In this document: positions 1-49,877 of the stretch, one piece after another
Layout: every line of letters begins with the position of its first letter
Position numbering within the stretch: position 1 is the first letter of the stretch
Assembly (NCBI RefSeq): GCF_017305915.1
Contig: NZ_JAFKJN010000005.1
Span: forward strand, 248,001-312,000
From: Reyranella sp.
GTDB taxonomy: Bacteria > Pseudomonadota > Alphaproteobacteria > Reyranellales > Reyranellaceae
Direction: 5' to 3'
DNA length: 64,000 bases
Notes under the pieces: generated by a model
What the model saw: only the letters and a program-made list of their open reading frames with translations
What the model was told of the DNA's origin: nothing
Databases searched by the model: none
Position numbers and translations under genes: made by a program

Positions 1-640
1 GCGGCGCCACATCGACGCCCAGCGCGTCCGGCGCCAGCGTCTCGATCGGCTTCTTCTTGGCCTTCATGATGTTGGGCAGCGAGGCGTAGCGCGGCTCGTT
101 GAGGCGCAGGTCGGTGGTGATCACCGCCGGCATCTTGAGCTTGATGTTCTCGAGGCCGCCGTCGACCTCGCGCTTCACCTCGATCGAGCCGTCGGCGACG
201 GTCAGCTTGTTGGCGAAGGTGCCCTGCGACCAGCCGAGCAGCGCGGCCAGCATCTGGCCGGTGGCGTTGGAGTCGTCGTCGATCGCCTGTTTGCCGACGA
301 TCACCAGGCCGGGCTGCTCCTTGTCGACCGCGGCCTTGAGCAGCTTGGCGACGGCCAGCGGCTGCAGCTCGGCGTCGGTCTGGACAAGGATGCCGCGGTC
401 GGCGCCCATGGCGAGCGCGGTGCGGATCGTCTCCTGGCACTGGGCCGGTCCGGCGGAGAAGGCAATGACCTCGGTCGCGGCCCCCTTCTCTCGCATGCGG
501 ATCGCCTCTTCCACGGCGATCTCATCGAAGGGGTTCATGGACATCTTGACGTTTGCCGTCTCGACGCCCGTCTTGTCGGCCTTGACGCGGATCTTGACGT
601 TGTAGTCGATGACCCGCTTGACCGCGACCAGCACTTTCAT
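1..640 (-). CDS. etfB: Electron transfer flavoprotein subunit beta, 3' end beyond the window
   Basis: ETF-beta pairs with ETF-alpha to pass electrons from acyl-CoA and other FAD dehydrogenases to ETF:ubiquinone oxidoreductase. The reading frame begins at ATG 640-638 with [14 protein letters not shown], typical of the family, and stays open to the window edge: 213 codons of a family usually near 249. Visible landmarks are the [14 protein letters not shown] segment, the nucleotide-binding [17 protein letters not shown] block, and the signature [10 protein letters not shown] followed by [15 protein letters not shown]. The last ~36 residues are missing because the window ends. etfA would be expected just beyond position 1. 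The upstream gap holds a promoter-like sequence and a leader hairpin. Confidence 0.95.
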
Positions 641-667
641 CGGGTGGAGCCTGCTCGGTGAGTGAGG

Positions 668-686
668 GCCGGACACACCGTCCGGC
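668..686 (-). promoter_or_regulatory. Hairpin in the etfB leader
   Basis: GCCGGAC-acacc-GTCCGGC forms a perfect 7-bp stem with a 5-nt loop between the predicted promoter and the etfB start. It could influence leader stability, but no function can be read from sequence alone. Confidence 0.35.
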
Positions 687-697
687 GAAGGGGATTT

Positions 698-727
698 CGT
701 GTAGGGGCGTTCCGCCGATGATGTCAA
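698..727 (-). promoter_or_regulatory. Predicted sigma-70 promoter for etfB
   Basis: On the minus strand a perfect TTGACA (727-722) is followed, after an 18-nt spacer, by TACACG (703-698), about 60 nt upstream of the etfB start. The -10 box is weak, so this is a candidate only. Confidence 0.4.
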
Positions 728-810
728 GGCTATGGCGCACTGCACAAAATCGCAGGGTGAAAGCGTTTTGTGAATACTTTCAACGATTTACAAGACGCAG
801 TCGCAACGAA

Positions 811-1398
811 TCAGCGGTTCGCCCCGGGCACCCACAGCACGTCCGAGCCGCCATTGTCGTTGAGCTTCCGCGACAGCACGAACAGATGATCCGACAGGCG
901 GTTGATGTATTTGATCGCCTCGGCGCTCACCGGTTGCTCGGCCGCCAGCGCGGTCATGCAGCGCTCGGCACGGCGCGTCACGGTGCGCGCGAGATGCAGC
1001 CACGCCGCCGCCTCGCTGCCGCCGGGCAGGATGAACGAGGTGAGCGGAGCCAGCTCGGCGTTCATGGCGTCGATCTCTTTCTCCAGCCGTTCGGTTTGCG
1101 ACGGCAGCATACGCAGCGCCTGCTCGCCCGCCTTGCCTTCGATCGTGCAGAGATCGGCGCCCAGGTCGAACAGGTCGTTCTGGATGCGCTTCAGCATGTC
1201 GTCGACAGGCGCGCGCAGGGCATCGTCCCGTACCGTGCGCTCGATCGCGGCGCGCGCCAAGCCGATCACCGCATTGGCTTCGTCGGTGGTGCCGTAGGCC
1301 TCGACGCGCAGGTCGTGCTTGGCCACGCGCTCGCCGCGGCCGAGCGAGGTTTCGCCCTTGTCGCCGCCCTTGGTGTAGATGCGCGTCAGCTTGACCAT
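811..1398 (-). CDS. Cob(I)alamin adenosyltransferase, PduO type
   Basis: Transfers the adenosyl group of ATP to cob(I)alamin, making the cofactor of methylmalonyl-CoA and ethylmalonyl-CoA mutases. At 195 aa it has the usual length of the PduO/EutT-like trimeric family. The N-terminal ATP-binding motif TKGGDKGETSLGRGERV lies at residues 8-24, followed by the GTTDEANAVIG helix. The C-terminal block TRRAERCMTALA...YINRLSDHLFVLSR is the family's adenosylation-site region. ATG 1398 is the natural start, 2 nt after the twin-TM gene's stop, so it is probably the last gene of the 3694-811 operon. A crotonyl-CoA carboxylase/reductase at 8857 suggests ethylmalonyl-CoA chemistry that would need this cofactor. 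Confidence 0.95.
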   Translation of the reverse strand: MVKLTRIYTKGGDKGETSLGRGERVAKHDLRVEAYGTTDEANAVIGLARAAIERTVRDDALRAPVDDMLKRIQNDLFDLGADLCTIEGKAGEQALRMLPSQTERLEKEIDAMNAELAPLTSFILPGGSEAAAWLHLARTVTRRAERCMTALAAEQPVSAEAIKYINRLSDHLFVLSRKLNDNGGSDVLWVPGANR

Positions 1399-1400
1399 GG

Positions 1401-1613
1401 TCAGCCCTTGGTCATCCACCACAGCAGGATGAAGATGATCGTCAGGAACTGCAGCCGCACGCGCCACCACATCAGCTTGTTGCTGCCGCGCGCGCGCTCG
1501 AGGCTGTTGGTCGGGCCGCGGCTCATGCTGACCAGACCGGCGAACAGCGCGCCGAGCGTCGCCAGGCCCGAGACGATCACCAGGATGAAGAAGATGGTGT
1601 TGGCGGTGTGCAT
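1401..1613 (-). CDS. Small twin-transmembrane protein, HIG1-domain-like
   Basis: A 70-aa protein with two hydrophobic segments (about residues 5-28 and 52-68) separated by a basic linker containing SLERARGSNKLMWWRVRLQ. This arrangement matches small alphaproteobacterial proteins annotated as HIG1-domain or twin-transmembrane proteins, often found beside cobalamin adenosyltransferase and ETF genes. Eukaryotic HIG1 proteins associate with respiratory complexes; the bacterial role is not established. It lies 13 nt after the amine oxidase gene and 2 nt before the adenosyltransferase gene, so it is surely co-transcribed. Confidence 0.75.
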   Translation of the reverse strand: MHTANTIFFILVIVSGLATLGALFAGLVSMSRGPTNSLERARGSNKLMWWRVRLQFLTIIFILLWWMTKG

Positions 1614-1625
1614 GGTCGGACTCTA

Positions 1626-3050
1626 TCACCCATTGTGCCGTCCCGCTCCCAGCCGCGCCTTGGCCCACGGCCGCATCTCGCGCGAGGCGTCGACGCCGGT
1701 AGCGGCCCGGAACACCGCCTCGGCCGTCTGCTCGCCCGACCAGAGGGCCGCATGCACGGTGCCATACTCGACCGGCTCGGTCGCCTCGCCGGCGAAGAAC
1801 ACCCGGCTGCCCAGCGGCCGGGCATAGACGCTGCGGTCCTCCGGCGCGCTGCCGACGCCGGGATAGGAATAGCCGCCGCGCGACCACGGGTCGGACAGCC
1901 AGCGCGGATAGAGCATGCCGACCGGCTCGGGGATCTTGTCGCCGAACATCTTGCGCAGAGAGGACATGGCGACCTCCTTGACCTCCTCGTCGCTGGCCGA
2001 GCGGTCGAGGCGCGCCGCGGTGGCGCCGTTGGAGAAGCTCAGCACGATCGGCAGGCCGGTCTCGTGGTGATGGCTCACCCAGGTGTTGAAGGTGCCGCGC
2101 CGGTCGGGACTGTCGGGTAAACGCCCGAACCATTTCGGCTGTTCCGGCCAGAAGCGCTCGGGGAAGCGCAGGTAGATCTTGCCCAGGATGCCGGCGCCAT
2201 AGCCCAGGGTGGCGATCGCCTTCTGCTGATCGACGGGCGGCAGCGGGTCGAGCGCCGGCAGGCCGGCGCGCAACAGCCCGAGCGGCACGGCGATCACCGC
2301 GCGATCGGCCTCGATCCTCTCGCCGCCCTGCAGGATCGCGGTGACGCCGCGGTCGGTCCAAACGATGCGCTCGGCGGCGGCGCTGCGCCGGATGCTGAGC
2401 TGGCGCGCGGCATCCTCGGTCAGGCCGACGAAGCCGCCCCGGGGCTGTGCGTTGCGGTCGAGGCCCTCGGTCGGGAACCATTCCTCGGCCGCGACGGCGT
2501 CGTAGGGCGCACCCTGCACGCCCTCGCTGCCCTCGATGAAGGTCGAGATGACCAGCCGGTCGATCTCCGGCAGCCACGAGGCGTGGAGCAGCGGATCGAC
2601 CGCCTCCTTCACCGAGATCGAGCGCGGCCCGCGCGCCGCCGTCATCGCCTTGCTCTTCCAGCTCGCCCATTCCATCGCCGTCTTGAAGGCGATGCGGCCC
2701 AGCACGGCGCGCTTGCGCTGGCCGTCGCGGGTTTTCACCTTGGCACGCGGATCGATCAGCAGCCGATCGCCCTGCGATTCGACCAGGGCAATGCCGAGCT
2801 TCTCGCACCACAGGGCGAGCGGATTGCCGTCGACGCCGTGCACCCACGAGCCGCCGAGATCGAGCGGCGCGCCCAGTGACTCGTCGGTCCAGGTGCGGCC
2901 GCCGACGCGCGCCCGCGCTTCCAGCACGGTCACGGTGAAACCCGAGTCGTGCAGCAGCCGCGCCGCGACCAGGCCCGCCATGCCGGCGCCGACCACGATC
3001 ACGCGCTCGGCGGTGCCGGCGCCCATCGACCAGGAGCCGGTCGCGGTCAT
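1626..3050 (-). CDS. FAD-dependent amine oxidase (flavin monoamine oxidase family)
   Basis: Probable FAD enzyme oxidising an amine or polyamine. The 474-aa protein opens with the Rossmann motif VIVVGAGMAGLVAARLL (residues ~16-32), followed by LEARARVGGRTWTDE, the second FAD-contact motif of the monoamine oxidase family. The C-terminal FAD motif FFAGEATEPVEYGTVHAALWSGEQTA... is intact. Start chosen at ATG 3050 because ATG and the upstream HAD stop overlap as ATGA (3050-3047), indicating translational coupling; a downstream ATG at 3026 is possible. The substrate cannot be inferred. The long overlapping frame on the same strand (811-3144) is a shadow. Confidence 0.9.
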   Translation of the reverse strand: MTATGSWSMGAGTAERVIVVGAGMAGLVAARLLHDSGFTVTVLEARARVGGRTWTDESLGAPLDLGGSWVHGVDGNPLALWCEKLGIALVESQGDRLLIDPRAKVKTRDGQRKRAVLGRIAFKTAMEWASWKSKAMTAARGPRSISVKEAVDPLLHASWLPEIDRLVISTFIEGSEGVQGAPYDAVAAEEWFPTEGLDRNAQPRGGFVGLTEDAARQLSIRRSAAAERIVWTDRGVTAILQGGERIEADRAVIAVPLGLLRAGLPALDPLPPVDQQKAIATLGYGAGILGKIYLRFPERFWPEQPKWFGRLPDSPDRRGTFNTWVSHHHETGLPIVLSFSNGATAARLDRSASDEEVKEVAMSSLRKMFGDKIPEPVGMLYPRWLSDPWSRGGYSYPGVGSAPEDRSVYARPLGSRVFFAGEATEPVEYGTVHAALWSGEQTAEAVFRAATGVDASREMRPWAKARLGAGRHNG

Positions 3051-3694
3051 GACAGCAACAACCCCGGCAGCTGCTCCATGTCGTCGAACAGCGTGCCGCC
3101 CGCCTTCGCAAGACTCTCGCGATCGGCGTAGGGCGCACCGGCATAGGCCAGCGCCCGCATGCCAGCGGAGCGTGCGGCCTGGATGCCGGGCACGGAGTCC
3201 TCGACCACGATGCTGTCGAACGGCTGCTCGTTCATCGCGATCGCGGCATGCAGGAAGAGATCGGGAAACGGTTTTCCGCGCGGCACCTGACTGGCGCTGA
3301 AGATGCGGCCGTCGAACAGCTCCCACAGGCCGGTGAGGCCCAGGGTGAATTCCATCTTCTCCGGCGAGCCCGAGCTTGCGACGCAGGTCGCGAGCCCTGC
3401 CTCCTGCAACGCCACGACCGCGTCCTTCACGCCGGGCACCGGCTGCAGCGGCGCCTCGCGGAAGCTGCGGTAGGTCACTTCCTGCATCTTCTCGACGAAG
3501 TCGTCGGGCAGCTTGCGGCCGAGCTCGGCCTCGCAGATCTCGACGCACGACTTGAGCGACCGGCCCATCAGCCGGCGCATCGTCTCCTCGACGGTCCAGT
3601 CGAGGCCGTGCGGCCTCAACGCTGCCGAAAAGCTCTTGTTAGCGAGCGGCTCGCTGTCGACCAGCACGCCGTCGCAATCGAAGATTACCAGCAC
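3047..3694 (-). CDS. HAD-superfamily phosphatase, beta-phosphoglucomutase-like
   Basis: A 215-aa haloacid-dehalogenase-type phosphohydrolase. Motif I is FDCDGVLVDSE (nucleophile and general-acid aspartates), motif II is the serine of CVASSGSPEK, motif III the lysine in PRGKPFPDLFL, and motif IV is VVEDSVPGIQAA. The helical cap between motifs I and II is the C1 type of phosphoglycolate phosphatase and beta-phosphoglucomutase relatives, so the substrate is probably a small sugar phosphate. It is the first gene of an apparent operon with the amine oxidase (4-nt overlap). Confidence 0.9.
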   Translation of the reverse strand: MLVIFDCDGVLVDSEPLANKSFSAALRPHGLDWTVEETMRRLMGRSLKSCVEICEAELGRKLPDDFVEKMQEVTYRSFREAPLQPVPGVKDAVVALQEAGLATCVASSGSPEKMEFTLGLTGLWELFDGRIFSASQVPRGKPFPDLFLHAAIAMNEQPFDSIVVEDSVPGIQAARSAGMRALAYAGAPYADRESLAKAGGTLFDDMEQLPGLLLS

Positions 3695-3700
3695 AACCCT

Positions 3701-3791
3701 GTCATCCTGAGCGAAGCGAAGGATCTCATGGCGATTGCTACCGGCATTCCGCTCGAAATGCCATGAGGTCCTTCGCTCCGCTCAGGACGAC
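3701..3791. repeat. Long imperfect inverted repeat, dispersed-repeat type
   Basis: Left arm 3701-3732 and right arm 3760-3791 are reverse complements at about 29 of 32 positions, and a smaller hairpin (GGCATT/AATGCC, 3743-3762) sits in the loop. The arms carry CCTGAGCGAAGCGAAGGATC, a wording found dispersed in many bacterial genomes. It lies between the HAD gene's start and the TauD gene's end. It may terminate or stabilise transcripts, or be a relic of a palindromic mobile repeat. Confidence 0.8.
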
Positions 3792-3796
3792 AAGGG

Positions 3797-4681
3797 CTAG
3801 TAAGGCTTGTCTCCCGCGACGGTGACGCGGTTGCCGCTGCGGGTATGCGGCCAGTAGTCCCACATCGCCCGGTGCTGGACGCAGCGATTGTCCCAGAAGG
3901 CGATCGAGTTCTCCTGCCAGCGGAAGCGGCACTGGAACAGCGGGTTCTCCATGTGCTGGTAGAGGTAGTTCAGGATGCCGTCGCTCTCGTCGCGCGGCAC
4001 GCCGATCAGGTAGCGCGTGAAGCCGCGGTTGACGTAGAGCGCCTTCTTGGCGGTCACCGGATGGGTGCGGACCACGGGGTGGGTGGCGCGCGGATACTGC
4101 TCCTTCTCGGCGACGCCGTAGTTCTTGTAGAGGCCGCGATAGACCGATTCGCCGTCGTGGAACGCGGTCATGCCGTCGAGATAGGTCTTCATGCGGTCCG
4201 ACAGCGCGTCGTAGGCGGCGTACATCGAGGCGAACAGCGTGTCGCCGCCCTTGGGCGGACACTTCTTGATGTAGAGGATGCTGCCCATCGGCGGCTCGAC
4301 ATCGCAGCTCACGTCGGTATGCCAGCCCTCGCCGTTGGCGCGCGGGCTGTCCTTGTCGGCGTGGATGACCATCAGCTCCGGCCGGCCCGCTTCGTGCGGC
4401 GCCGCGGGATGGACGTGCAGGTCGCCGAACAGGCGGCCGAAGGCGACGTGCTGGTCGGGCGTGATGTGCTGGTCGCGGAAGAAGATCACCGAGTTCTCGG
4501 CGAGCGCGCGATGGACCTCGTCCTGCTGGCGGTTGCTGAGCGGCTTGCTGAGATCGATGCCGCTCACTTCCGCGCCGATGATCGGCGTCATCTTGTCGAT
4601 GGCGATGGTCTCGTAGGGCGCGCTCTCGTCTGCGACGTGGCGGATGCGGGGGCCTTGGCGGCCGCTCAGGGATCCTTGCAT
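3797..4681 (-). CDS. TauD/TfdA-family Fe(II)/2-oxoglutarate dioxygenase
   Basis: Non-haem iron dioxygenase that couples decarboxylation of 2-oxoglutarate to hydroxylation of a small substrate, often a sulfonate, aryloxyacetate or carnitine-like compound. In the 294-aa protein the iron facial triad is H121 and D123 in GEGWHTDVS and H270 in WDNRCVQHRA; an arginine near 281-285 would bind 2-oxoglutarate. The front EVSGIDLSKPL is typical of the family. The gene follows the Bug receptor gene by 9 nt and is presumably co-transcribed with it, which argues that the receptor's ligand is the dioxygenase's substrate or precursor. Whether the substrate is taurine-like cannot be read from the sequence. 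Confidence 0.92.
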   Translation of the reverse strand: MQGSLSGRQGPRIRHVADESAPYETIAIDKMTPIIGAEVSGIDLSKPLSNRQQDEVHRALAENSVIFFRDQHITPDQHVAFGRLFGDLHVHPAAPHEAGRPELMVIHADKDSPRANGEGWHTDVSCDVEPPMGSILYIKKCPPKGGDTLFASMYAAYDALSDRMKTYLDGMTAFHDGESVYRGLYKNYGVAEKEQYPRATHPVVRTHPVTAKKALYVNRGFTRYLIGVPRDESDGILNYLYQHMENPLFQCRFRWQENSIAFWDNRCVQHRAMWDYWPHTRSGNRVTVAGDKPY

Positions 4682-4690
4682 GGCAATCTC

Positions 4691-5656
4691 CTACTCGAGC
4701 TTGATGTTAGCGCGTTGGATGATCTTGCCCCAGCGCTCCTTTTCCGAGCGCGTGAAGGCAGCGAACTCGTCGGGACTCATCAGCCTGGGGCCGGTGCCCA
4801 TGGATTCCAGCCGCTCCAGCACCGCCGGCTTGGCGGCGACGGCGCGGACGTCGGCATTGATCTTGTCGACCACCTCGCGCGGCGTGCCCCTGGGCGCATA
4901 GAGCCCGGTCCAGGTGGTGAGCAGCACGTCGGGCAGGCCGACCTCGGCCGCCGTCGGCACGTCGGGCAGCGGCCCGTAGCGCGTGGTGTCGGTGACGAAC
5001 AGGCCCTTCAGCGCGCCGCGGTCGATCGCGATCTTGGCGTTGACCGTGTCGATCATCATGAAGGTGAGCAGGCCGCTCTGCACGTCGGGGATCGCCTGCG
5101 GGTTGCTCTTGTAGCCGACGTACACGGCCTCGACGCCGGCCGCCAACTTGTAGAGCTCCGACGCGACGCGCGCCGGCAGCGCGCCGGCGCCGTAATTGTG
5201 CTTGCCCGCCTCGGCCTTCAGCTTGGCGGTGAGCGCGGCCGGCGTGTCGATCGGGCTGTTCCTGTCGACCAGCAGCACGAACGGCGAGGTGCCGAGGCGC
5301 GTGATCGCCTCGAAGCTCGCGATCGGATCGTACGGCAGCTTGTCGTAGATCGCCGGATTGACCGTCTGGGTCATCGCCGACGTCGCGAAGATCGTGAGCC
5401 CGTCGGGTTTGGCGCGCGCCACCGATTCGGCGGCCGGAATACCGTTGCCGCCGCCCTTGTTGTCGACCACCACCGGCTGGCCCCACATCGCCGAGAGCTG
5501 CTCGGCATAGATGCGCGCGCCGATATCGGTCGCGGCACCCGCCGGGAACGGCACCACCACGGTGACGCGGCTCGGCGGCCAGCTCTGCGCCCGCACGACG
5601 GCGGGAGCGGCCAAGGCCGCCGCTGTTGCCCCGATGAACCGGCGACGATCGAACAT
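4691..5656 (-). CDS. Bug-family (TctC-like) periplasmic solute-binding protein
   Basis: Periplasmic receptor of the tripartite tricarboxylate transporter type, binding carboxylates or related small molecules. The 321-aa protein starts at ATG 5656 with a twin-arginine-like or Sec signal, RRRFIGATAAALAAPAVVRAQ. Family landmarks follow: VTVVVPFPAGAATDIGAR, GQPVVVDNKGGGNG, a KPDGLTIF segment, and VPTAAEVGLPDV. An upstream in-frame ATG at 5800 would bury the signal peptide, so it was rejected. No TctA or TctB membrane genes lie nearby. It is divergent from the IclR gene and 9 nt before the TauD gene. Confidence 0.92.
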   Translation of the reverse strand: MFDRRRFIGATAAALAAPAVVRAQSWPPSRVTVVVPFPAGAATDIGARIYAEQLSAMWGQPVVVDNKGGGNGIPAAESVARAKPDGLTIFATSAMTQTVNPAIYDKLPYDPIASFEAITRLGTSPFVLLVDRNSPIDTPAALTAKLKAEAGKHNYGAGALPARVASELYKLAAGVEAVYVGYKSNPQAIPDVQSGLLTFMMIDTVNAKIAIDRGALKGLFVTDTTRYGPLPDVPTAAEVGLPDVLLTTWTGLYAPRGTPREVVDKINADVRAVAAKPAVLERLESMGTGPRLMSPDEFAAFTRSEKERWGKIIQRANIKLE

Positions 5657-6495: not shown

Positions 6496-7389
6496 ATGAA
6501 GCCGCAAGACGTGTTGCAGCATCCGACCAACGTCCTGACCGCCGCCCAGCGCCGGCAGTTCTTCGACAAGGGCTTCGTGGCGCTGCCCGACTATGTGCCG
6601 GAGCGCTGGCTGGCGCGGTTGCGCGCCGCGATGGCCGAGTTGCTCGACTGCAGCCGCGCCAAGACGCAAACCGACAGCATCTACGTGCTCGAGGAAGGCC
6701 ATTCGGCGAACGACCCGCGGCTGCATCGCGTGGCCAGCCCGCAGGATCAGCATCCCACCTTCTGGGAGTTCATGACCGACCCGGTCATGACCGATTTGGC
6801 CGCCGATGTCGTCGGCCCCGACGTGAAGTTCCATCACGCCAAGCTCAACGTGAAGTCGGGCAAGGGCAGCCGCGGCTTCAGCTGGCACCAGGACATCCCG
6901 GCCTGGCCGCACACCGACTTCAGCCCGGTCACGATCGGCGTCTATATCGACGGCTGCACGCCCGAGCAGGGCCCGCTCAGCGTCGCCGAAGGCAGCCACG
7001 ACGGACCGTTGTTCTCGATGTACGACGACGACGGCAACTACGTCGTGAAGATCCGCGACCGCGATCTCGGCTGGCTGACCGACGACAAGATCCGGCGCAT
7101 CACCGGTGGGCCGGGCACGACCTTGCTGCTGAACTGCCGCGCGGTGCACGGCTCGGCACCCAACACGGAGACGGCGGCGCGGCCCCTGCTGCTGCCGGTC
7201 TATTCCTCCGCCGATTCGTTCCCGATCACGCCGAGCCCGATCCCCAGCCCGCACCAGGGCGACATCGTGCGCGGCCTGCCGGCCCGCTTCGCCAGCTTCG
7301 ACACGCGGCCGGTCGAGATGCCGCCCGACTGGCGCGGCGGCTACAAGCCGGTCTGGATGCACAAGAACAAGGACAAGGTCGCCTATTAG
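6496..7389 (+). CDS. Phytanoyl-CoA dioxygenase (PhyH) family protein
   Basis: Fe(II)/2-oxoglutarate oxygenase of the PhyH family. In the 297-aa protein the iron ligands are the histidine and aspartate of FSWHQDIPAWPH and the distal histidine of NCRAVHGSAPN. ATG 6496 follows a clear GGAGG (6486-6490), so it was preferred over an in-frame ATG at 6436 that would overlap the IclR gene. Bacterial members hydroxylate varied small molecules such as ectoine, phosphonates or amino acids; nothing here fixes the substrate. Downstream of iclR on the same strand; its last 4 nt overlap the convergent VOC gene. Confidence 0.9.
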   Translation: MKPQDVLQHPTNVLTAAQRRQFFDKGFVALPDYVPERWLARLRAAMAELLDCSRAKTQTDSIYVLEEGHSANDPRLHRVASPQDQHPTFWEFMTDPVMTDLAADVVGPDVKFHHAKLNVKSGKGSRGFSWHQDIPAWPHTDFSPVTIGVYIDGCTPEQGPLSVAEGSHDGPLFSMYDDDGNYVVKIRDRDLGWLTDDKIRRITGGPGTTLLLNCRAVHGSAPNTETAARPLLLPVYSSADSFPITPSPIPSPHQGDIVRGLPARFASFDTRPVEMPPDWRGGYKPVWMHKNKDKVAY

Positions 7390-43434: not shown

Positions 43435-45474
43435 ATGAGACGTTCGTCGATCCTCCTGCTCGCTGTCCTCGTGCTCGCCCTCCTCGGAAGGCCGGGGGAG
43501 CCGGCGCGGGCCCAGGCGCCGGCCGGTTCCCTGCCGGAGAGCGCACTGGTCGACGCGCTGTCCAGGGGCGACACGGCAGAGGGACTGAAGCTCGCCATCC
43601 GAATGGTCGAGGAGCGGCAGGTCACGGCCGGTGACGGCTCACCGCAGCTCATGCCCGCCTTGCGCTGGCGCGGCTACTTCAAGGCGCTGGGCGGCGATGT
43701 TGCAGGCGCCGCCGCCGACTTCACCCAGTCCTTCGCGCTCGGCGAGAAATTCCTCGGCGCCAATGCGCATCGCCTCACCGATGCGGCGCTCGCCGCCATC
43801 CTGACCTATCTCGAAACCGACCGTGACCTGATGCTGTCGCTGCTCGCCGACCGCCCCGACGACCAGAAGCTCGCGTTGGCGGCTCTCGGCATGTCGCGTG
43901 CCGAGAAGGGCCGCCTGATGGAGTTGATGCGGGCCAACATCCAGCGCACCCGCCTCAATGCCAAGGGACCGTACAAGCTGCAGGAAAGCCGTCAGCTTGT
44001 GGCCGACATGGCCGAGGCGCGTGCCGAGTACGAGCGCATCCTGTTCGCTGCCGCGCAGCCCTTCGACGCCGCCACGATCGCCCAGTTGCAGGCCCTCGAG
44101 CAAAGGATCACTGCCGGCCAGCAGGCGATGAACGACCTCTTCGGCTTCATGGCCTTCTTGGCCGACGTCAACGAGGTCCGCTACAAACCCGAGCTGCTCG
44201 CGGACGCTGGGCGGCCGCCGATCGGCTCGTGGACGATCGACTACGCCACCTTCCGCCGCTACCGGTTCGGCAAGCCCGGCGCCAAGCCGGCCGCCGTGGC
44301 GCCGGCGTGGGAGTATCTGGGCTTCCTGTCGCGCTCGGATGGCCGCGTCGCGGTCGCCGCGCTGGGCCCGGCGGCCGAGATCGATCCGTTCGTGCTTCGC
44401 CTCCTGAATGCGGCCGCCAATCCCCTGAGCGACTACCTGCCGCTGGCGCGGCAGGGCTACAATCACCTCGTCGCCCCGCTCCTCGCGCGATCGAGGGAGG
44501 TGGCGTTCGCCGATCCGGGCGCGGCCCAGCTCGACCGGTCGATCATCAATCGCTTCGTGCGGATCTTTCCCGACGGCAACCTGAACCTTGTGGCCTTCGC
44601 CGCCTTGAATGACGGCACGTCGTTCCTGGTCGACCAGTACGATATCGGCTACGCGGCCTCGGCCTTGCAGCTCGGCATGTTCGCGCCGATGGCGCTGAAG
44701 CCCGGTTTCGACGTCGATGTCTATGCCGATCCGGACTTCCGCCTGTCGGCGCCCGCTGGGGGAGCGCAGGAAAGCAACCTGTCGCTGCTGAACCGGCGGC
44801 CGATCCGGCCCCTGCCGGGGACCCTCGCCGAGGCCAGCGCGATCGGCAGCGTCATCCCGCGCGCCAGTATCGTCTCGGGCGCGCAGGCGACGCGCCGGCT
44901 GCTCCTCGAGAAGCCGGCGCCGGGCGTCCTGCATGTCGCCACCCACGGCATCTTCTTCGACGACACCGAGCCCGCGGCCGGCGGCGTCGGCGGGGAGATG
45001 CCGGGATCGGCGCCGGCGCTCTGGCTCGCGCCGATGGTCGAGACCGGCCTGGTGCTGGCCGGCAGCCCCGACGATTCGATGGGCGGCATCGTGACCGCGC
45101 TCGACGTCCTGGGGCTCGATCTCTCGCCGACCCAGCTCGTGGTCCTGTCGGCTTGTGAGACGGCGCGCGGCGCGGTGCGGCCGGGCGATTCGGTCTACGG
45201 CCTGCGCTACGCCTTTCATGCGGCAGGAGCCGAGACGGTTGTCGCCAGTCTGTGGAAGGTGCCCGACGACGCCACCAAGTCGCTGATGGCGCGGTACTAT
45301 GCCAACCTGCTGGGGGGTAACAGACGGCTCGGCGCCATGACCGAGGCCATGCGACAGACAAAGAAGACGCTGGCCCATCCGGCCTTCTGGGCGGCGTTCA
45401 CGGTGTCAGGGGCAGGTGGCCTGCTGCGCGGCTCGAAAGACGGCGCGCTTCCCGAGATCAGAATGCGGCGCTGA
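43435..45474 (+). CDS. Secreted CHAT-domain protein (caspase-like protease)
   Basis: A 679-aa protein with a Sec signal peptide (SSILLLAVLVLALLGRPGEPARAQ) followed by a long helical region (about residues 35-270, TPR-like) and a C-terminal CHAT domain (about 360-670). The catalytic dyad is H504 in LHVATHGIFF and C574 in VVLSACETARG, both intact; SVYGLRYAFHAAGAETVVASLWKVPDDAT is the usual distal block. CHAT proteases include separase relatives and bacterial defence or envelope proteins; a periplasmic location is predicted here. Target unknown. Confidence 0.92.
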   Translation: MRRSSILLLAVLVLALLGRPGEPARAQAPAGSLPESALVDALSRGDTAEGLKLAIRMVEERQVTAGDGSPQLMPALRWRGYFKALGGDVAGAAADFTQSFALGEKFLGANAHRLTDAALAAILTYLETDRDLMLSLLADRPDDQKLALAALGMSRAEKGRLMELMRANIQRTRLNAKGPYKLQESRQLVADMAEARAEYERILFAAAQPFDAATIAQLQALEQRITAGQQAMNDLFGFMAFLADVNEVRYKPELLADAGRPPIGSWTIDYATFRRYRFGKPGAKPAAVAPAWEYLGFLSRSDGRVAVAALGPAAEIDPFVLRLLNAAANPLSDYLPLARQGYNHLVAPLLARSREVAFADPGAAQLDRSIINRFVRIFPDGNLNLVAFAALNDGTSFLVDQYDIGYAASALQLGMFAPMALKPGFDVDVYADPDFRLSAPAGGAQESNLSLLNRRPIRPLPGTLAEASAIGSVIPRASIVSGAQATRRLLLEKPAPGVLHVATHGIFFDDTEPAAGGVGGEMPGSAPALWLAPMVETGLVLAGSPDDSMGGIVTALDVLGLDLSPTQLVVLSACETARGAVRPGDSVYGLRYAFHAAGAETVVASLWKVPDDATKSLMARYYANLLGGNRRLGAMTEAMRQTKKTLAHPAFWAAFTVSGAGGLLRGSKDGALPEIRMRR

Positions 45475-45879: not shown

Positions 45880-46641
45880 CTACAGGTACTTCGCCGGCCG
45901 GATGATGGCGCGCCACATGTGCGCGACCGGGCTGTTGTCGTAGCCCAGGCCCTGGCTCGGCTGCTTGAAGTTGCGACCGATGATGTCGGTGAACTCTTCG
46001 AGCACGGGATGCAGGTTGGGGTCGAACGAGTAGATGTCGTTCAGCGTGATCTGGCGGCCGGACATGTACCACTTGTGCGCCCGCATCCGCTTGTAGTCCT
46101 CCTCGACGTAAGGGTCGGGCACGTAGTCGGCGCCCATCCACTCGGTGTAGTTCTTGGGATACTCGTAGCCGACCGCCGGATCGGGATAGAAGCGCAGCAC
46201 CTGGTGGGCGCGGATCGCCCAGGTCACTTCCTCGTCGACATAGGGCTCGACCAGCTGGGCGCCCCAGTAGCCGTGGTCGCCGCGGATGAAGCCGACCACC
46301 GAGATGTCGTGCAGCAGGCAGGCCAGGATCATGTTCTCCGGCAGGCCGTTCTTGCGGGCGTGATGGGCGCTCTGCAGCAGGTGCATCGACGGCCCGAAGC
46401 GCAGCTTGAAGAAGTCGACCAGCGTCGGCTTCTCCGGCATCGCCGGCAGGCGCGGATCGTCGACCATCGACACGCGCCCGTTCGGCTTGCCCTTGAGCAG
46501 CGCGCCGGCGCTCGGCGGCGGGTCCATCGTGCCCTCGGCGTACATGTGCAGCCGCGACTTGATGAAGACGGTGTCGAGCTCGCGCGCCATCCGGGCCTCG
46601 TGCTCGTCGGCGCGCTGCGACAGGGTCGCAAAATCGTTCAT
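45880..46641 (-). CDS. HD-domain protein with diiron-oxygenase-like ligand pattern
   Basis: A 253-aa HD-superfamily protein. Candidate metal ligands are H87 (SMHLLQ), H111-D112 (CLLHDISV), H123 (GDHGYWGAQL, an HxxxGA motif), H146 (IRAHQVL) and an aspartate near 207. That H...HD...H...H...D order is the one used by mixed-valent diiron HD oxygenases such as PhnZ and myo-inositol oxygenase. The spacing of the first pair is compatible, but the second gap is shorter, so hydrolase activity remains possible. ATG 46641 follows GGAGGAAG. Divergent from the PhyH gene (67 nt). Confidence 0.78.
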   Translation of the reverse strand: MNDFATLSQRADEHEARMARELDTVFIKSRLHMYAEGTMDPPPSAGALLKGKPNGRVSMVDDPRLPAMPEKPTLVDFFKLRFGPSMHLLQSAHHARKNGLPENMILACLLHDISVVGFIRGDHGYWGAQLVEPYVDEEVTWAIRAHQVLRFYPDPAVGYEYPKNYTEWMGADYVPDPYVEEDYKRMRAHKWYMSGRQITLNDIYSFDPNLHPVLEEFTDIIGRNFKQPSQGLGYDNSPVAHMWRAIIRPAKYL

Positions 46642-46708
46642 GGCTTCCTCCGCTGGCTTCTGGCTTGGGGGCCTTGCCCTCAGCCTAGCACAGGGCGGAG
46701 AATCCGAC

Positions 46709-47455
46709 ATGGTGTTCGAGGAAACACATTGGGAGGCGCTGAGGCGGGACGGCTACACGATCGTCTCGGGCGCGATCGCCGCGGGGCCGCTCCGCGCGGC
46801 GCAGGAGGCCGCAGATCGGCTGAATGCCGCATTCCCAGACGGCTGGGAGCGTTCGAAGAATGAATCCTGGCGCGAGATCCGCTATTGCCGCGAGCCGGCC
46901 TTCATGGCGCTGGTCGCCGATGTGCTCGATCCGCTGACCCTGGAGATCCTCGAGAGCGCGCCGCCGGTCGACTACGTGCAGCTCGCCGCGACCTTCCCCG
47001 GCTTCGCGACCAAGGGCCGTGTCGGCCGCAACTTCCATATCGACGGCGGCCAGCAGGAAGCGCTGGGCGTGTTCAACGTGCTGCTGGGCGTCGCGCTGAC
47101 GGACGTTGCCTCGGACACCGCCGGCAGCTTCCACGTGCTGCCCGGCAGTCATGAGCAGTTCGCCGCGCTGTTCAAGCAGCAACCGACGGACGCTCCCGTC
47201 CATTGGGGCGAGGTCAAGCTCAGCGGCCAGAGGCAGTTCCTGCGCGCGCCCATGACGGTGCCGCGTCTAGAAGCCGGCGACATCGTCGTCGCGCACAGCT
47301 TCCTGGCCCACGGCACGTCGGCGAATACAACCGATGCCCGGCGCGATATGTTCTTTCAGCGCCGCGCCGCCCAGCCGTTGTGGGATCCGGCCCGCCAAGC
47401 CAGCGCGCGCGAAGCGTTCATGCGTAACCCCTGGATGTTCTTCCGCCGCCCCTGA
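46709..47455 (+). CDS. Phytanoyl-CoA dioxygenase (PhyH) family protein
   Basis: A 248-aa Fe(II)/2-oxoglutarate oxygenase. Iron ligands are the histidine and aspartate of GRNFHIDGGQQE and the distal histidine of AHSFLAHGTSAN; the arginine of TTDARRDMFFQRR would bind 2-oxoglutarate. ATG 46709 is 8 nt beyond GGCGGAG. Bug receptor gene starts 8 nt after the stop, and an HD-domain gene diverges upstream. PhyH-HD neighbours recall the PhnY/PhnZ pair of phosphonate oxidation. Confidence 0.9.
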   Translation: MVFEETHWEALRRDGYTIVSGAIAAGPLRAAQEAADRLNAAFPDGWERSKNESWREIRYCREPAFMALVADVLDPLTLEILESAPPVDYVQLAATFPGFATKGRVGRNFHIDGGQQEALGVFNVLLGVALTDVASDTAGSFHVLPGSHEQFAALFKQQPTDAPVHWGEVKLSGQRQFLRAPMTVPRLEAGDIVVAHSFLAHGTSANTTDARRDMFFQRRAAQPLWDPARQASAREAFMRNPWMFFRRP

Positions 47456-47463
47456 GGTGATCG

Positions 47464-48438
47464 ATGCTGCGCCGCCGAACCTTCCAGCGCCTGGCCGCTT
47501 CCGTGCTCGCGACGCCGATGATCGCGGGCCGCAGCCGGGCGCAAAGCTGGTCGGCGCAACCCGTGCGCATGATGGTCGGCTATGCCGCGGGCCAGTCGAT
47601 CGACATCCTGGCCCGGCTGGTCGCGCAGTCGCTGTCGGAGCAGTTCTCCCAGCAGTTCATCGTCGAGAACAAACCGGGCGCCGGCGGCAACATCGCCGCC
47701 GAGGGCGTCGCGCGCGCCACGCCGGACGGCCATACGCTGCTGGTGATCGGCGCCAACAACCCGATCAACACGACGCTGTACGACAAGCTCGCCTTCGACC
47801 TGCTGCGCGACGTCGCGCCGGTCGCCGGCATCTACCGCGTCTACCAGGTGATGGTGGTCAATCCGTCGTTCCCGGCCAGAACCGGCGCGGCGTTCATCGC
47901 CTACGCCAAGGCCCATCCTGGCAAGATCAACTACGGCTCGGCCGGCACCGGCTCGGTGGCGCATGTCAGCGGCGAGCTGTTCAAGATGATGGCCGGCGTC
48001 GACATGCAGCACGTGCCCTATCGCGGCGCGCCGCTGGCGCTGGCCGACCTGCTGGGCGGCCAGGTGCAGGTGATGTTCGACAACCTGCCGTCGTCGATCG
48101 ACCATGTCCGCAACGGCCGCCTGCGGGCCTTGGGCGTGTCGACGCCGCAGCCGCTCGAGCTGCTACCCGATGTGCCGCCGATCGCGACGTTCGTGCCGGG
48201 CTACGAGACCTCGGCCTTCGCCGGCCTCGGCGCGCCCGCGAGCACGCCGCGCGAGATCGTCGACAAGCTCGGCAAGGGCGTCGCCACCGCGTTGGCCGAC
48301 GCCAAGATCAAGGCGAAGATCCTCGATCTCGGCGGCGTGCCGATGACGATGACGCCGCCCGAGTTCGGCAGGTTCCTCGCCGAAGAGACCGAGAAGTGGG
48401 GCAAGGTGATCCGCGCCGCCAACATCAAGCCGACTTAG
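47464..48438 (+). CDS. Bug-family (TctC-like) periplasmic solute-binding protein
   Basis: A 324-aa receptor: signal RRRTFQRLAASVLATPMIAG, PVRMMVGYAAGQSIDILAR (the family's usual PFxPGG is replaced by YAAGQS, which may alter the ligand), FIVENKPGAGGNIAAEGV, TPDGHTLLVIG, and VPPIATFVPGYE. It lies 8 nt after the PhyH gene and should be co-transcribed with it. No TctA/TctB genes are adjacent. Confidence 0.92.
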   Translation: MLRRRTFQRLAASVLATPMIAGRSRAQSWSAQPVRMMVGYAAGQSIDILARLVAQSLSEQFSQQFIVENKPGAGGNIAAEGVARATPDGHTLLVIGANNPINTTLYDKLAFDLLRDVAPVAGIYRVYQVMVVNPSFPARTGAAFIAYAKAHPGKINYGSAGTGSVAHVSGELFKMMAGVDMQHVPYRGAPLALADLLGGQVQVMFDNLPSSIDHVRNGRLRALGVSTPQPLELLPDVPPIATFVPGYETSAFAGLGAPASTPREIVDKLGKGVATALADAKIKAKILDLGGVPMTMTPPEFGRFLAEETEKWGKVIRAANIKPT

Positions 48439-48545: not shown

Positions 48546-49877
48546 TTACGTGCGCTTGAAGCCTTCGAGCTCCATCGCCGCCCAGTCGGAGACCTTCTGG
48601 ATCGAATCGCCCTTGAAGTGGCGGACGATCATCTGCGCCTGGATCGCCTGCGCCCAGATCTGGGCGGCGATCAGCGGCGGCGCCGGCGAACAGACGACGC
48701 CCGCCTTCTGGTCGCCGCCCTTGATCGGGTAGTGCGACAGCGCGCCCTTGGGCGGCCCCTCTTCCTCCCAGGTCTTGAAGTCGGTGAACTTCGGATAGGG
48801 CGGGATGTCGTAGCCCTGGCTCGCCGCGACCTGCTTCTCGGCGGCTTGCCGGCTCGCCAGGAACGCGAGCAGGCTCTTGGCCGCCGGCTTGTTCTTGGAG
48901 AAATTCCAGACGCCGTAGAAGCGCGGCAGGATCGGGTTGAACCGGCCGGCCGGCCCTTTCGGGAAGCCGCCGAACCAGCACTTCTCGGCGACCTGCGGCG
49001 CGTCGCGCTTGGCGACCGCCCAGGCCGACGGCGGATTGAAGATCAGCGAACCGTTGCCCGAGATCAGCCACTTGTTGTTCGAGGCGTCGTCCCAGGCCTG
49101 CGCGTCGGGCGTGCAGAAGCCGGCGATCTTCTTGCCGTATTCCAGCACCTGTTTGACCGCATCGCTCTTCACCGTGATATCGCCCTTGGCATTCATCAGC
49201 TCGGCGCCGTAGGCGAGGAACAGCGCCCCGACCCACTGGTTGGTGTCGGTGGTGTTGCCGAGCGGCAGGCCGAAGCCGTGCCCGGCCTTCTGGGTCTTCT
49301 CGGCCGCGACCAGGAAGGCATCCCAGGTCCAGCTCGCGTCGTTGGGCGGCTTGCCGGCGGGATAGAGCGCCTGGTAGTCGACGCCGGCATACTCCTTGAG
49401 CATGTCGAAGCGCACGGTGCAGCCGAGCAGCAGCGTTCCGCGCGTCATCGGTACGCCGAGCCAATGGCCCTGGTACTTGCCGAGATATTCCACGGCCGGA
49501 TCGATCGGTCCGTTCTGGGCGACGACCTGCTGGACCACGTCGTCATGGTTGTCGAGCGCCTGGTTGAACTGCGCCGATTCCCAGTTGGTGAACTCCATGA
49601 TGTCGTGGCCGGAGCGCGCCTGCGCCTCGACCGACAGCGTGAGCAGCAGCTTGTTGCCCTGGCTGGTGATGAAGTCGACCTTGACGTCGACCTTCTCCTT
49701 CGCTGACCATTCCTTGATGAGGGCTTCCTGGACATCGTTGGCGCCGGGCACCCAGTGGTCCCACAACCCGATGGTCAGACTCCCAGCTGCATTGGCGCTG
49801 CGCACGAACGGCGCAGCGAGGCCGAGGGCAGCGCCTCCGGCCACGACTCCACGACGAGACAGTTTTGATGGCGGCAT
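48546..49877 (-). CDS. ABC-type sugar-like solute-binding protein, orphan
   Basis: A 443-aa family 1 extracellular solute-binding protein with a Tat-like signal (SRRGVVAGGAALGLAAPFVRSANA). GSLTIGLWDHWVPGANDVQ and the mid-region FNPPSAWAVAKRD are typical of sugar-type receptors. No ABC permease or ATPase gene is nearby, so it must work with components encoded elsewhere. ATG 49877 with GGGAGGA upstream. Converges with the Bug gene. Confidence 0.88.
   Translation of the reverse strand: MPPSKLSRRGVVAGGAALGLAAPFVRSANAAGSLTIGLWDHWVPGANDVQEALIKEWSAKEKVDVKVDFITSQGNKLLLTLSVEAQARSGHDIMEFTNWESAQFNQALDNHDDVVQQVVAQNGPIDPAVEYLGKYQGHWLGVPMTRGTLLLGCTVRFDMLKEYAGVDYQALYPAGKPPNDASWTWDAFLVAAEKTQKAGHGFGLPLGNTTDTNQWVGALFLAYGAELMNAKGDITVKSDAVKQVLEYGKKIAGFCTPDAQAWDDASNNKWLISGNGSLIFNPPSAWAVAKRDAPQVAEKCWFGGFPKGPAGRFNPILPRFYGVWNFSKNKPAAKSLLAFLASRQAAEKQVAASQGYDIPPYPKFTDFKTWEEEGPPKGALSHYPIKGGDQKAGVVCSPAPPLIAAQIWAQAIQAQMIVRHFKGDSIQKVSDWAAMELEGFKRT

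Follow-up and report, generated by a model that had tools for sequence, protein, structure and literature searches.

HD-domain oxygenases are a small described group, with a mixed-valent Fe(II)/Fe(III) cofactor and a C-X cleavage that depends on O2. A 2020 review counts only three characterised members, MIOX, PhnZ and TmpB, and expects further HD oxygenases among uncharacterised HD proteins (PMC8177086). In that review, an arginine three residues before the first histidine is said to mark the HD phosphohydrolases, and a hydrolase, YqeK, uses the same H...HD...H...H...D set of six ligands (PMC8177086). In the PhnY/PhnZ system for 2-aminoethylphosphonate and in TmpA/TmpB, a 2-oxoglutarate (2OG) dioxygenase gene lies beside the HD-oxygenase gene, as it does at the locus analysed here, which is part of a 64,000-nucleotide stretch (the window) of a 6.47-Mb Reyranella sp. 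genome. Judged by the HD protein, the closest named relatives are Reyranella-type and 'Enhydrobacter aerosaccus' bins. A literature search returned no paper that describes this HD family or the pairing of its gene with a PhyH gene.

Organization of the locus

The HD gene and the PhyH gene are divergent and a Bug-type receptor gene follows the latter (Table 1), with coordinates, strands and both gaps (67 and 8 nt) the same as those given in a preliminary description of this DNA. A longer HD reading frame, mechanically extended to an upstream start at 46710, overlaps the PhyH gene, and no sigma-70-like site was found in the divergent spacer by a consensus scan. On its side away from PhyH, the HD gene is flanked by a gene for a CHAT-domain protein (679 aa; 43435-45474). 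Elsewhere in the window, a second PhyH match (6565-7182, + strand) and a further Bug/TctC match (4706-5518, - strand) are separated by about 1 kb.

Table 1. Features of the HD-PhyH locus, with positions counted from the first nucleotide of the window
Feature	Position	Strand	Remark
HD-oxygenase-like protein, 253 aa	45880..46641	-	ATG at 46641
HD ligand D202	46036-46038 (codon)	-	the 'late Asp' of the preliminary description
HD ligand H146	46204-46206 (codon)	-	
HD ligand H123	46273-46275 (codon)	-	within HGYWGA
HD ligands H111-D112	46306-46311 (codons)	-	
HD ligand H87	46381-46383 (codon)	-	
Divergent spacer between HD and PhyH start codons, 67 nt	46642..46708		
PhyH-family Fe(II)/2-oxoglutarate dioxygenase, 248 aa	46709..47455	+	
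Bug/TctC-type periplasmic receptor, 324 aa	47464..48438	+	8 nt past the PhyH stop
SBP_bac_1 solute-binding protein	48546..49877	-	syntenic in L002 and L070; candidate module member only

Fold and family placement of the HD protein

The AF2 model of the HD protein (pLDDT, 89.8; pTM, 0.83) bears out the HD-oxygenase-like fold that had been proposed from the letters of the sequence, with VIA-align Z scores of 14.4 to TmpB, 14.3 to PhnZ and 9.4 to MIOX, all above those of the HD hydrolases (remaining comparisons, ≤8.0; YqeK, 6.5). Foldseek searches with the model placed only TmpB (E 2.9e-05) and PhnZ under an E value of 0.001, and all matches outside these two were at 0.2 or worse; the best fold matches span residues 71-229 and barely cover the N-terminal extension. 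Sequence profiles point the same way, as a search from the HD family reached TmpB at 2.7e-06 and PhnZ at 3.4e-05, and hhalign against the Phn-HD proteins aligned the ligands with a probability of 97.5% (P 6.4e-12).

In an alignment of 58 HD sequences, relatives with 53-90% identity to the window protein, H87, H111, D112, H123, H146 and D202 are unchanged in every row, an invariance that goes beyond chance. Many further invariant residues lie toward the C-terminus. D202 aligns with the last metal aspartate of the PhnZ family in a three-family alignment and, with hhalign, only at a relaxed setting. Based on the alignments and secondary structure, the six ligands may converge on a two-metal site. 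The Pfam HD model scores under its 22-bit cut-off on the window sequence alone (18.7 bits) and matches all 58 members (best, 1.4e-07). The NCBIfam models for Phn-HD and TmpB give weak matches in 58/58 members (best, 2.2e-07 and 7.6e-07, respectively) and are the top curated NCBIfam matches of the window protein, both below cut-off (PhnZ, TIGR03276, 20.9 of the required 214.6 bits; TmpB, NF049941, 19.7 of 300 bits). At such a distance from the family cut-offs the protein is not PhnZ itself. The same genome holds a separate Phn-HD gene (G000:C51:170075-170593, L137) which, at 201.8 bits, falls just below the TIGR03276 cut-off.

The segment preceding the first histidine (residues 71-86) contains conserved F78 and R81 but, in the alignment, no YxxE substrate loop. 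The position three residues ahead of that histidine is variable in the window family (mostly P/T/A/N/G), with no conserved arginine, and is Q in the Phn-HD rows shown. An arginine three residues before the last aspartate, present in the Phn-HD rows shown, is likewise absent. Measured against the published criteria, the HD protein is, on its sequence, without both the phosphohydrolase arginine and the PhnZ/TmpB loop (PMC8177086). It shares the fold and the six metal ligands with PhnZ and TmpB but differs from them in being longer (253 aa), extended by a long segment at the N-terminus and conserved in its C-terminal part; orthology with either was considered and rejected based on the missed cut-offs and the absent loop. 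With MIOX it shares the fold, the ligand order and the lack of a YxxE loop, and differs in being shorter and in that a weak MIOX Pfam match occurs in only 3/58 members. MIOX and YqeK were weighed mainly via the fold score. Overall, the case for the modelled fold and the ligand set is strong, and the protein would belong to an uncharacterised family on a PhnZ/TmpB/MIOX-like branch of the HD proteins.

An uncharacterised family of about 200 aa from the Alphaproteobacteria (L165-L212) shares the ligands and an FDP motif with the window family, but its proteins are shorter, carry R at the position three before the first histidine (rows shown) and lack the long segment after H146; hhalign relates it to the window family at 96.9-98.7% over 124-135 columns. 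In a 75-row tree (midpoint root; bootstrap not fully settled), sequences of the window family cluster in one well-supported group and the Phn-HD sequences in another, both with long stems, and the 200-aa proteins fall between the two. Tandem duplicates of the HD gene occur at L030:171-2337 and L035:8001-9585.

Linkage of the HD and PhyH genes

The PhyH protein scores 44.1 bits against PF05721 (cut-off, 22) and its fold resembles the 2OG dioxygenases (Z about 15-16). The HxD motif (H110, D112) is present in every orthologue compared, and the distal histidine (H201) and arginine (R211/R212) are invariant; a pooled PhyH profile contained three distant sequences and was not used for naming. PhyH matches are common, with 18 in this genome and 2-22 per genome across 40 HD genomes.

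Among 80 HD loci with flanks of up to 8 kb, many of them shortened by contig ends, a PhyH orthologue was present near the HD gene in eight (L002, L003, L004, L006, L028, L033, L038 and L070), and the only other PhyH-type reading frames were two at 6.9 and 7.7 kb. Twelve of 49 HD genomes possess the PhyH orthologue, close to the HD gene in eight and, in the remaining four, at sites where no HD gene was found. Within the genus (65 genomes), the HD gene occurs in 34, the PhyH orthologue in 16 and both in 13 (Fisher p 0.0097, counts that ignore shared ancestry, several linked loci being close kin), leaving 21/34 HD-carrying genomes without PhyH and three genomes with PhyH alone. Where both are present, they are within 2.6 kb in 8/13 genomes and apart in 5/13. 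Of these eight pairs, five are divergent at 64-118 nt (the window and four other genomes), two are divergent at 0.8 and 2.6 kb, and one is convergent at 1.0 kb. Random placement would yield almost no pairs this close (binomial 1.5e-20, a value that overstates the case because the genomes are related).

The two gene trees disagree, as the HD protein of L070 groups with those of the unlinked loci L009/L010 and its PhyH groups with the window PhyH, from which we infer that the adjacency survived, or re-formed, through gene replacement. PhyH is not an obligate partner, since for most HD family members the 8-kb flanks contain no PhyH and the immediate neighbours are mixed. The recurrence anticipated in the preliminary description was found in part: HD homologues do occur near PhyH genes (8/80 loci), often divergently, with most HD relatives lacking a PhyH gene in these flanks. 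The linkage is real but local; pairing of HD with PhyH is plausible for this lineage and not general for the HD family.

The Bug receptor and other neighbours

The Bug receptor matches TctC (PF03401) at 216.3 bits (cut-off, 27), one of 109 such matches in the genome; with so many TctC genes, and 18 PhyH matches, one Bug beside one PhyH carries little weight by itself. A Bug gene directly behind PhyH was seen only in the window and in L070. Bug orthologues (≥73% identity, a threshold picked after seeing the list) are present in 16 genus genomes, 15 of which also possess the HD gene (p 0.00011), with no significant co-occurrence of Bug and PhyH (p 0.51); these p values ignore shared ancestry. 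The window, G435 and G493 have the orthologue within about 4 kb of the HD gene, and in G483, G470 and G442 the distance is 14-24 kb. A fixed HD-PhyH-Bug trio was rejected based on the scarcity of PhyH near HD relatives and of genomes with an adjacent Bug, and any role for the receptor in a module is speculative.

HD relatives are found mostly in varied catabolic neighbourhoods. Their 134 immediate neighbouring reading frames, some of which may be spurious as they were picked without a gene caller, are led by aldehyde dehydrogenase (7), Ldh_2 (5), TctC (4), luciferase-like proteins (4) and SBF transporters (4), and the neighbours that were clustered or listed by Pfam included no phosphonate gene. 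In L017, L018 and L026, the HD gene has a nitrile hydratase beta subunit and Ldh_2 nearby in shared order. L028, L033 and L038 have a class III CoA-transferase that overlaps PhyH or is close to it (at L028:4828-6770 it overlaps the end of the PhyH gene), and in L006 one is about 7 kb from the HD gene; none was seen adjoining the HD-PhyH pair in the window.

In the sister family, 40 loci were examined, 39 of which carry the 200-aa HD gene. PhyH lies within 5 kb of this gene at four loci (0.65 expected, P 0.005) and directly upstream at three (0.03 expected, P 6e-06; both P values from a simple Poisson with rounded genome sizes). A 2OG oxygenase gene directly precedes the HD gene at L182:1920-3397, L194:4660-6265, L206:3926-5478 and L198:4644-6454, the last with a TauD-type gene in place of PhyH; each has a divergent LysR gene and, with L176, the four form one clade (support 99/94). 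Two HD genes lie in tandem in L178, in a single stretch (496-4746) with PhyH, an SDR and a Rieske-type oxygenase.

Discussion

In the explanation judged best, and held with about even confidence, the uncharacterised HD-oxygenase-like family partners a 2OG dioxygenase in some lineages, where it acts on a non-phosphonate substrate. Oxygenase chemistry is likely for the HD protein. A lesser but appreciable probability attaches to the HD protein acting on its own across many catabolic contexts, as an oxygenase or some other diiron enzyme, the adjacent PhyH then marking a shared catabolic island and not a consecutive step. The 21 genus genomes with HD and no PhyH orthologue would fit such independence, as would the aldehyde dehydrogenase, Ldh_2, luciferase-like, nitrile hydratase and several transporter genes that adjoin HD elsewhere, but the close divergent pairs of five genomes, their changed arrangements in others, the mismatched trees and the excess of pairs within 2.6 kb argue for a tie between the two genes.

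Despite the similarity to the PhnZ fold, a dinuclear HD hydrolase, such as a YqeK-like phosphatase, could be built on the ligand set that YqeK shares (PMC8177086), and the related 200-aa family has arginine at the phosphohydrolase position in the rows shown; this is unlikely in view of a fold score less than half that to TmpB, the variable residue at that position in the window family and the mostly catabolic neighbours. Least probable is a PhnZ-type cleavage of a phosphonate C-P bond with PhyH in the role of PhnY. Such a function is suggested by the gene pair, the fold and the identity of the top NCBIfam matches, yet the PhnZ score is about a tenth of its cut-off, the YxxE loop and the arginine before the last aspartate are missing, no phosphonate gene was listed nearby and the genome has its Phn-HD gene elsewhere. 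The HD-PhyH pairing also differs from PhnY/PhnZ and TmpA/TmpB in not being obligate.

For the family favoured here, the HD protein would most likely bind two irons through its six ligands and, with O2, break a C-X bond in a small organic acid that has been hydroxylated. The divergent PhyH dioxygenase of some Reyranella-type genomes, this one included, probably makes that hydroxylated acid, and the extracellular ligand of the Bug receptor may be a related carboxylate. In its most specific form, a non-phosphonate two-oxygenase module in which PhyH hydroxylates a carboxylate or acyl-CoA and the HD protein cleaves the hydroxylated carbon with O2, carrying the logic of PhnY/PhnZ over to C-C bonds, the proposal is tentative and, taken whole, rather doubtful; the class III CoA-transferases at L028, L033, L038 and L006 would fit an acyl-CoA substrate.

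The HD-PhyH pairing may represent a small degradation module in this and some related genomes. The presence of the HD family in varied catabolic settings makes it a testable candidate for the further HD oxygenases expected among HD proteins, and the recurring pairs of 2OG oxygenase and HD genes, here and in the 200-aa family, suggest that a hydroxylate-then-cleave strategy may extend beyond phosphonates.
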